Shown: in pieces, positions 40,103-42,088 of the stretch | Layout: the number at the start of each line of letters is the position of its first letter | Position numbering within the stretch: the stretch's first letter is position 1 | Assembly (NCBI GenBank): GCA_001829315.1 | Contig: MIAY01000019.1 | Span: forward strand, 62,001 to 126,000 | Origin: Spirochaetes bacterium GWE1_32_154 | Lineage (GTDB): Bacteria > Spirochaetota > GWE2-31-10 | Length of the DNA stretch: 64,000 nucleotides | Direction: 5' to 3' | Translations under genes and position numbers: made by a program | The notes under the pieces: model-generated | Seen by the model: the letters and a program-made list of their open reading frames with translations, nothing else | Databases searched by the model: none | Told to the model about the DNA's origin: nothing

Positions 40103-40633
40103 ATGAATCTTGAAGATGCTATCAAATTGTATGAAAAAAACATTACAAAACTTGCAGAAAAAAATGGTGTTGAATATGAAGTAATGCTTGAAAACTGGAT
40201 TCAGAAATTTAATGAATTTGATAAAATTACTGATAAAAAAGGTTTTTCAGATGAACTGGAATCATATAATTTGGAAGAAAAATTATCTCTTGTTGCATTA
40301 ACAATTAATGGTTCGATATTAATTGTTTCCGAATCAAATGATAATGATGAAAGAAAAGTGAGATATCAATCAATAAAGATTAGAACTGATGACTCAAAAA
40401 ATGTACCTGAAGTTTTTACCGGTAAAATAAAAGATGCAATAAAAATTTCAAAAACTGTTGTATTTGAAAATATTATCGAAACATCACCTATCATTAAAAT
40501 TAAATCATCAGATGATTTTAATTGGGATGAATTTGAAAATGTAGCTGATGAAATGACCAGGGAATTTACTAAACAATTTGAAATGATAGATAATCAAACG
40601 ATAACAAGACGACTTAATAATTTGGAGTTATAA
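40103..40633 (+). CDS. Hypothetical protein, first gene of the HU unit
   Basis: 176 residues, not recognised. Soluble, acidic overall, no signal peptide. Helical ends flank a beta-rich middle (KLSLVALTINGSILIVSES, VRYQSIKIRTDD, VVFENIIETSPIIKIKS). ATG with AGAAGGAGC, a strong ribosome site. The last base of its stop codon is the first base of the HU start, so translation is coupled. Its fixed position before two HU-domain genes suggests a partner or regulator of them, but this is only inference. Confidence 0.65.
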   Translation: MNLEDAIKLYEKNITKLAEKNGVEYEVMLENWIQKFNEFDKITDKKGFSDELESYNLEEKLSLVALTINGSILIVSESNDNDERKVRYQSIKIRTDDSKNVPEVFTGKIKDAIKISKTVVFENIIETSPIIKIKSSDDFNWDEFENVADEMTREFTKQFEMIDNQTITRRLNNLEL

Positions 40634-40920
40634 TGAATAAAGAACAACTCATTTCCGGAATGGCTGAAAAAACAGGTAAAACTAAAACTGAAACAAAAAA
40701 AATTATAGAGTCAATATTTGATGAATTAACGTCGGTTTTATCAGAAGAAAAGTCTTTTACCATTACATCATTTGGCAATTTCTCCGTAGTAAAAAGAGAA
40801 CGACGAAAAGGTTTTAATCCCTCAATTGAAAAATTCATGATGTTACCGCCAAAATTAAAACCACGCTTTAAAACAAGCGAAATTCTTAAGGAGAAAATAA
40901 ATAAAAATGGTAGAAAATGA
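40633..40920 (+). CDS. HU-family DNA-binding protein
   Basis: Small nucleoid protein that bends DNA. 95 residues, usual length. N-terminal helices (NKEQLISGMAEKTGKTKTE), the family's FTITSFGNFSVVKRERRKGFNP block at the base of the DNA-binding arm, and a C-terminal helix. The arm tip reads PSIEKFMMLPPKLKPRF, so the usual RNPxTG-like tip with its intercalating proline is altered (NPSIEKFMMLP). ATG with GGAG 6 bases upstream; overlaps the next gene by 14 bases, so it is made together with the membrane-bound HU. Confidence 0.9.
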   Translation: MNKEQLISGMAEKTGKTKTETKKIIESIFDELTSVLSEEKSFTITSFGNFSVVKRERRKGFNPSIEKFMMLPPKLKPRFKTSEILKEKINKNGRK

Positions 40921-42025
40921 TGATAAAATGCATATTGATGATTTTGCCGAAAAAATAGCACATGAAAATGGTATAACTAAAATACAGGCAAAAGAATTTA
41001 TTACGACTCTATTTGATTTTATTGGCGAAAAATTAGCTGATAATGAACCGGTTAAGATTTATAATTTCGGATCATTATCAAAAAAATGGATGAAAAAAAG
41101 AAAAGGAATTAATCCAAAAACTCAGGAAAAGATTAATATACCTGCACATTATAAAATTTTATTTAAACCCTACTCAAAATTATCTGATATCGTTAATAGA
41201 AAATATAGAAATTTAAAACCAAATGTTTTAGATGCCTTATTAACACTTACCGGTATGACAAAGGTAAATCCCGATTTTATTAATGCGATAAATAATGATA
41301 CAGAAAAAAAAAGTATGTGGGAAAAAGCTAAAAAAAGAGCATTAATAATCCTTGCAATTATATTATTGGTTTTGCTCGCAACTCTTGCTACTTTAATTAC
41401 AATTCCTGTTGTTATGATTAATGAAAACAATAAAATTGTTCAATATGTCAATTCCATTAATAAAATATTCGGTCTTGATAAAATAACTGACCGGTTTAAA
41501 GGTGAAATTAACGAGCAGGAAGCAAATGAATTTTTTATATCTGCTAAAACAAAATTAACTGATAATAGAAAAATCATAGGGGAATATATAGTCAAAGACG
41601 GTGACAATATATTTAATATTGCTAAAGAACATTGGAAAAACGAATATTTATGGCCTGATTTGTACATTACCAACAAAGAAAAAATCGAGGATCCGGATTT
41701 AATCAAAAAAAATGATGTTCTTGTAATTTATGAAAAACTTGGTGATCCTAAAGATTTTTCAAAAAAACAAAAAGACGATATTGTATATGCTTATTTAGGT
41801 ATCTATAGAATATACAAAGCGTTGGGTGAAGCAGAACTTCAAAAAGGCAATAAAATCAAGGGTGAACAACGAATCAACGATTCTAAATGGACACTCTATA
41901 CTGCAGTCCGATACGATCATAACTTGCTCAATAAATACGAAGATGCCATTTATCCTGAAGACAGGGAATTTGTTCAACAACAAATTGACAAATTCGGTTT
42001 TATTCCTGCAAAAAAAGATAAATAA
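40907..42025 (+). CDS. HU-domain / transmembrane helix / LysM fusion protein
   Basis: 372 residues with an unusual order. Residues about 8-97 form an HU/IHF domain (AEKIAHENGITKIQAKEF, VKIYNFGSLSKKWMKKRKGINPKT, IPAHYKILFKP). A linker of about 45 residues follows. A basic patch (KAKKR) precedes one membrane helix at about 145-171, which by the positive-inside rule puts HU in the cytoplasm. Residues about 226-276 are a LysM domain (YIVKDGDNIFNIAKEHW ... VLVIYE), expected to bind peptidoglycan in the periplasm. A helical tail ends the protein. The ribosome site is somewhat distant, so the exact start is open. Confidence 0.85.
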   Translation: MVENDDKMHIDDFAEKIAHENGITKIQAKEFITTLFDFIGEKLADNEPVKIYNFGSLSKKWMKKRKGINPKTQEKINIPAHYKILFKPYSKLSDIVNRKYRNLKPNVLDALLTLTGMTKVNPDFINAINNDTEKKSMWEKAKKRALIILAIILLVLLATLATLITIPVVMINENNKIVQYVNSINKIFGLDKITDRFKGEINEQEANEFFISAKTKLTDNRKIIGEYIVKDGDNIFNIAKEHWKNEYLWPDLYITNKEKIEDPDLIKKNDVLVIYEKLGDPKDFSKKQKDDIVYAYLGIYRIYKALGEAELQKGNKIKGEQRINDSKWTLYTAVRYDHNLLNKYEDAIYPEDREFVQQQIDKFGFIPAKKDK

Positions 42026-42054: not shown

Positions 42055-42088
42055 AAATCAGATGTGAAATAAATTTCACATCTGATTT
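42055..42088 (+). terminator. Hairpin after the HU-LysM gene
   Basis: A 16-bp perfect palindrome (AAATCAGATGTGAAAT and complement) with only AA between the arms, 30 bases after the stop. No T-run follows; it may stop or stabilise the transcript. Confidence 0.6.

Follow-up and report, generated by a model that had tools for sequence, protein, structure and literature searches.

An overlapping pair of genes in the window, the 64,000-nucleotide stretch of spirochaete DNA analysed here, encodes a small free HU protein and a 372-residue HU protein that continues through a membrane helix into a LysM domain. Pairs of this kind recur across Spirochaetota, and on balance we consider it probable that they form an HU-based envelope tether of two proteins, a dedicated heterodimer in which one subunit is anchored in the membrane.

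Results

Organization of the locus

The locus contains the following features.

40103..40633, forward strand: 176-codon gene for a 176-aa protein, overlapping the free HU gene by 1 nt
40633..40920, forward strand: free HU partner, 95 aa, with an intact NP arm tip (RKGFNPSIEKFMMLPPK); PF00216 at 78.1 bits; member of the type-A partner clade
40907..42025, forward strand: membrane HU, 372 aa, in the order HU, transmembrane helix, LysM, C-terminal helical domain
40931..41197, forward strand: HU domain of the membrane HU, residues 9-97, with arm RKGINPKTQEKI and NP tip; PF00216 at 84.4 bits
41342..41404, forward strand: transmembrane segment of the membrane HU, residues 146-166; hydropathy 3.09, within model helix 132-187
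41585..41728, forward strand: LysM domain of the membrane HU, residues 227-274, placed by NCBIfam, a 49%-identical relative and the predicted fold
41762..41995, forward strand: C-terminal helical domain of the membrane HU, residues 286-363 approximately; pLDDT about 94
42055..42088, no strand assigned: perfect 15-bp inverted repeat AAATCAGATGTGAAA-TAAA-TTTCACATCTGATTT, read from the sequence past the last stop codon

The overlap between the free HU and membrane HU genes is exactly the 14 nt reported in the earlier note on this DNA, and that between the 176-residue gene and the free HU gene is exactly 1 nt. The inverted repeat is likely to be the terminator at the end of the operon, judging by its sequence and position; its A+T content exceeds what the terminator scan can handle. 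A promoter scan returned a number of sites not above that in shuffled sequences. The window genome also contains a third HU, adjoining rpsT, which looks like the housekeeping copy. Its gene (in L050; G000:C1 515000-525000) has rpsT on one side and a response-regulator gene on the other, the latter followed by a bactofilin-like gene, and the order rpsT, HU, response regulator, bactofilin-like gene was also found in genomes G001 and G005 (the bactofilin being assigned by eye).

Domains of the membrane HU

The domains that the earlier note had read in the 372-residue protein were recovered with small shifts in their boundaries. The HU domain, previously placed at residues 8-97, matched PF00216 over residues 9-97 with 84.4 bits (E 6.5e-24), and the free HU matched with an E-value of 6.1e-22, both well above the Pfam cut-off of 22.4 bits. 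In the AlphaFold2 model of the membrane HU, the HU domain spans residues 10-98 at a pLDDT of about 88 and one long helix spans residues 132-187, enclosing the single hydrophobic segment at 146-166 (earlier given as 145-171). The top Foldseek matches of the model were HU/IHF chains, with E-values from 2.6e-6 and including Borrelia Hbb at 3.4e-4. The LysM domain, formerly put at 226-276, gave a weak Pfam match (PF01476, 13.0 bits, E 0.1, below the cut-off of 20.9), and its assignment is backed by an NCBIfam match (E 3.5e-4), by Pfam scores above the cut-off in two orthologues (26.6 bits, E 5.9e-6, in G007; 23.6 bits in G201) and by the predicted fold (residues 223-275, pLDDT 93-96). When modelled separately, the LysM and C-terminal half gave a pTM of 0.87, and the modelled LysM superposed on that of E. 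coli Kbp (PDB 7pvc) with 1.1 A over 54 columns. Pfam did not recognize the LysM in the Treponema versions of the protein.

To the earlier description we add a folded helical domain after the LysM (residues 286-363). A fold search with this domain returned no significant match besides LysM and no clear PDB relative. The LysM together with the same C-terminal domain also occurs without HU in other spirochaetes, namely G349, G361, G277 and G377 (L138:3835-4479, L139:3667-4317, L140:3146-3859 and L141:3634-4380), where an N-terminal helix serves as anchor; in G349 and G361 the HU-less protein coexists with the HU version.

Membrane topology

The arrangement proposed earlier, with HU inside and LysM outside, agrees with the distribution of charged residues around the helix. 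A basic stretch, KKSMWEKAKKR, lies just before the transmembrane segment of the window protein, and the counts of Lys plus Arg before and after the helix are 6 and 1 in the window, 5 and 1 in G007, 7 and 1 in G201, 5 and 2 in G349, and 4 and 1 in G009. The corresponding counts in Treponema (2-3 before, 3-4 after) are uninformative. No signal peptide was predicted at the N-terminus of the membrane HU or on its partner. With HU ahead of the sole membrane span, LysM behind it and no signal peptide on the partner, HU should lie inside and LysM outside, consistent with a cytoplasmic HU and a periplasmic LysM.

Distribution and types of the fusion

The full architecture was sought in Spirochaetota genomes and in plasmid records. 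A scan of genome contigs with the window protein found no match, one with a Treponema alignment did give matches, and the survey of 393 Spirochaetota genomes was made with a family profile. The earlier note had named HU plus LysM architectures across spirochaetes as the thing to search for, and the profile found the full-length fusion in 19 of the 393 genomes (approximately 5%), distributed over eight families and including the window genome. The weakest fusion scored 249 bits and the top HU-less protein 120 bits. A one-off fusion was rejected, with full-length relatives in 18 further genomes, and several copies are found in single-contig or isolate genomes, which excludes assembly artefacts. 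The patchy distribution indicates that this is not a universal segregation machine.

The fusions fall into distinguishable types. Type A proper consists of the window protein and those of G007 (49% identical) and G201, with an A-like form in G361, G349 and ten Treponema genomes. Type B (G009, G019, G031, G041) has a coiled-coil-like region, lacks the C-terminal domain and is encoded beside a HAMP-cyclase gene. Carriers include cultured Treponema socranskii (G110 and G208, ATCC 35535 and 35536), Treponema sp. Marseille-Q4130 (G227) and rumen Treponema assemblies (G345, G070). Type C, a shorter and divergent form, was found in G001, G005, G007 and G008, all four from the window's order; in it a basic, HU-like N-terminal part without an arm is followed by a helix and a LysM (28.7 bits); profile-profile comparison of this N-terminal part with HU gave an E-value of 6e-6 and a probability of 85%. 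Type C apart, there were no HU proteins among the remaining LysM proteins (200-320 aa) that were retrieved from the phylum.

Several other assignments were tried and rejected. For a plasmid-borne version, 194 plasmid records matched but none covered 80% of the query, and the matches listed aligned with the HU part only. A Desulfoferrobacter match proved to be an ordinary 90-aa HU. A defence system was rejected on the finding of no PADLOC families for any of the proteins, and a phage system on PHROG matches that reflect just the single HU and LysM domains.

Pairing of the membrane HU with a small HU

Each of the 19 fusion genes is immediately preceded on its own strand by a small HU gene, with overlaps of 4, 8, 11 or 14 nt. 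The flanking genes, named by sequence reading, vary by group: purB/tpiA, ilvC, an RbsD/FucU-like gene with ligA, HAMP-cyclase/argS, or the folP region. Since the neighbourhoods differ between groups, it is the HU pair that constitutes the conserved unit. For an out-of-sample test we searched with the partner profile alone over 145 genomes of the Treponema family. Of 13 matches above the score gap (96.9 versus 81 bits), ten were already known, and the three new ones (G442, G456, G447) all have a membrane HU nearby; in G447 the two genes are separated by approximately 620 nt, the sole pair not directly adjoining. Three matches just under the gap had no membrane HU alongside. In type C, a mini-HU of 79-84 aa (PF00216 at 29.7 bits for G005) is encoded immediately upstream in four of four cases. 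In total, all 26 membrane HU genes, from 25 genomes, are paired with a small HU, and recurrence of the gene pair in that many genomes excludes chance.

The pairing does not extend to the 176-residue protein, which the earlier note had joined to the unit. This protein had no match in Pfam, NCBIfam, PADLOC or PHROG. Its family is found across the order, with paralogues, and its relatives lie beside folP in G003 and G005 and on a different contig in G007. The overlap with the free HU gene stands, but a conserved three-gene order does not: relatives of the 176-residue protein lie away from the HU pair, so its gene does not belong to the unit, and we rejected a three-gene unit on the lack of linkage across the order. 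The gene is an operon neighbour in the window. A folP gene and a lipoprotein gene are found near it in G003, G005 and the window.

Phylogeny, arms and charge of the HU domains

A tree was constructed from 67 HU domains. With only 92 columns to draw on, its deep branching is weak. A single supported clade (97/86) unites the 15 type-A partners; its branching order parallels the one seen among the membrane HUs, and the rpsT-linked HU is separate from both groups. The parallel trees show a pair that has been inherited together rather than one recruited time and again from the housekeeping HU.

We also compared the DNA-binding arms. In the window the arms of both HUs are intact and carry the NP tip. 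The tip is retained in 15 of 15 type-A partners, and an arm-tip proline is retained in 14 of the 19 membrane HUs (12 with NP, two with DP) but has been lost from the other five (G227, G208, G019, G031, G041). The partners in G019, G031 and G041 (72-73 aa) have lost the entire arm, leaving these three genomes with no proline-tipped arm in either subunit. The type C partners are likewise armless, and in type C the arm is absent from both proteins; in types A and B an arm is retained by one subunit or by both. The presence of arm residues in homologues, on which the earlier note had made its reading depend, therefore holds for the window pair and only in part for the family. In some lineages the partner has lost its arm entirely, a sign that it serves as a dedicated dimer partner. 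This role, earlier proposed for the free HU, is strongly supported by the invariant pairing and the parallel clades together with the loss of the arm in two partner lineages.

Charge also varied. Canonical HUs have a net charge of +5 to +14, the window partner one of +10 and the HU domain of the window membrane protein one of +7. In Treponema the HU domain of several membrane proteins is nearly neutral or acidic (-1 to -4), and in type C the membrane HU is very basic (+12 to +16) and the mini-HU mildly acidic. The mini-HU of G019 matched a CCDC81-like prokaryotic HU family (6.8e-6) and that of G005 matched CCDC81_euk_1 (1.9e-5). The common denominator of all types is the pairing together with the membrane-LysM layout; the window type has kept its predicted DNA-binding features intact, and in the other types they vary.

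Discussion

A model for the paired HU proteins

In the model that we favour, the small cytoplasmic HU and the membrane HU, made from overlapping genes, would assemble into a dedicated heterodimer. Its membrane-bound member would span the inner membrane once, and the outer end of that protein, comprising the LysM and often the helical domain, would bind peptidoglycan. Each complex would then hold a segment of DNA, without sequence specificity, at the inner membrane and so clamp the DNA to the wall. The analysis shows the domain order, the pairing, the gene overlap, the phylogenetic depth and the single helix, with positive-inside charges in some of the proteins. Heterodimer formation is strongly suggested by the armless partners. 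We infer DNA binding from what is known of the HU family and from the intact arms, glycan binding would follow from what is known of LysM domains, and the layout of the protein suggests tethering of the nucleoid to peptidoglycan. Given the variable arms, some versions may use HU only for dimerization or scaffolding.

The main rival to this model takes that last possibility further: HU would act as a dimerization or scaffolding module, a role already proposed for the CCDC81 clade, and would serve only to join the small protein to the membrane protein in a complex that organizes parts of the envelope or cytoskeleton without contacting DNA. Types B and C lend weight to this explanation. The partners are armless in G019, G031, G041 and type C, as is the membrane HU of type C, the mini-HUs of G019 and G005 match CCDC81-type families, and HU domains in Treponema are near neutral. 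Yet the arm-tip proline is conserved in every type-A partner and in most membrane HUs, and the arms and charge of the window proteins resemble those of canonical HU. We accordingly regard a purely structural role as rather unlikely, although it deserves to be kept in mind. Less likely still is a regulated sink, in which the membrane HU would sequester the free HU until the state of the wall, sensed by LysM, released it to alter compaction or transcription. Obligate pairing and gene overlap do suggest that the amounts of the two proteins are coupled, and type B adjoins a HAMP-cyclase signalling gene. That signalling neighbour is restricted to type B, however, we identified no sensor, protease-cleavage or regulatory element, and the partner stands apart from the housekeeping HU, all of which makes a sink improbable.

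HU proteins are sometimes extracellular, and one could place HU and LysM together on the outer side of the membrane, in the periplasm or at the surface, where HU would bind extracellular DNA. We give this very little credence: neither protein has a signal peptide, the lone helix sits between HU and LysM so that a single span separates them, and positive-inside charges are found in the window protein and four relatives. An accidental gene fusion without selected function would fit the patchy occurrence of the fusion (19 of 393 genomes), but of all the explanations it is the one we find hardest to credit, being refuted by conservation across eight families and varied neighbourhoods, by the partner that accompanies every copy and by the parallel trees.

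Other spirochaete proteins with a transmembrane helix and LysM

Other proteins of the phylum also have a transmembrane helix and LysM. Two (L186:1315-2250 in G224:C437 and L187:1448-2419 in G074:C37) have two HhH-like repeats before the helix and LysM, those of L186 giving weak Pfam matches to HHH_5 and DUF4332; they are possibly a second spirochaete type with a putative nucleic-acid-binding domain in this position. In a further set (L182, L183, L189 and L192 in G138, G101, G126 and G165; L188, L190 and L191 in G086, G096 and G173), the helix and LysM are preceded by a domain of about 80 aa with a Lys/Ala/Pro-rich, histone-H1-like tail, or by the tail alone. The HU, HhH and H1-like forms together look like a recurring theme of a basic, presumably cytoplasmic part, a membrane helix and a LysM. 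That the dedicated heterodimeric HU is a direct DNA-to-wall tether, and one of several independent designs on this plan, is a more tentative proposal, which we put at slightly short of even. In the protein encoded by L049:4604-5524 (G000:C14) of the window genome, a transmembrane helix and LysM (E 2.2e-8) are joined to a segment resembling the Hsp70 substrate-binding domain (PF00012 positions 391-536, E 1.8e-11).

Comparison with known systems

It has long been asked how the nucleoid is attached to the envelope, and the answers have been mostly indirect: transertion, partition complexes and occlusion factors. The domain order of the unit, from DNA through membrane to wall, and its obligate partner make nucleoid attachment directly testable, and the unit is present in cultured T. 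socranskii. The versions with both arms, one arm or no arms constitute a natural series for examining the role of a membrane-bound HU fold, and possibly a link to the CCDC81 scaffolding clade. A literature search for HU joined to LysM, in a coverage that excluded most subscription journals, found no description; the paper by Burroughs et al. (2017, Cell Cycle 16:1093, PMC5499826) is listed as reference 82 of PMC5906684.

The HU domains of the spirochaete pair share with HU/IHF proteins, including Borrelia Hbb (PDB 2np2), the fold, the arm and the NP tip, but those proteins are soluble and one member of the spirochaete pair is fixed in the membrane. The LysM fold is that of LysM proteins such as E. 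coli Kbp/YgaU (PDB 7pvc), from which the spirochaete protein differs in joining its LysM to an HU, predicted to be cytoplasmic, and to a C-terminal helical domain. RodZ-type proteins have a cytoplasmic HTH, a transmembrane helix and a periplasmic domain, and are likewise bitopic, connecting a module in the cytoplasm with the side facing the wall. The HTH of RodZ binds MreB, however, not DNA, and RodZ is not known to have HU, LysM or a partner gene.

Bacteroidetes reportedly have proteins composed of a CCDC81-like HU, a transmembrane helix and SPOR, for which a role in chromosome partitioning is said to have been proposed. These would be the nearest precedent, each uniting an HU-superfamily domain, a membrane helix and a domain that binds peptidoglycan, although they carry SPOR in place of LysM and belong to a different phylum from Spirochaetota. 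They are not known to have a coupled free HU partner. PF18175 (CCDC81_bac) had no match in the window genome in our search; within the window the free HU reached 17.9 bits against a cut-off of 35 and the membrane HU gave no match. LysM, not SPOR, follows the helix, and in contrast to the CCDC81 family the HU domains are of the classic PF00216 type with proline-tipped arms. Having neither a CCDC81-type HU nor SPOR, the spirochaete family is not a member of the HU-SPOR group, but by analogy it may work in a similar manner.
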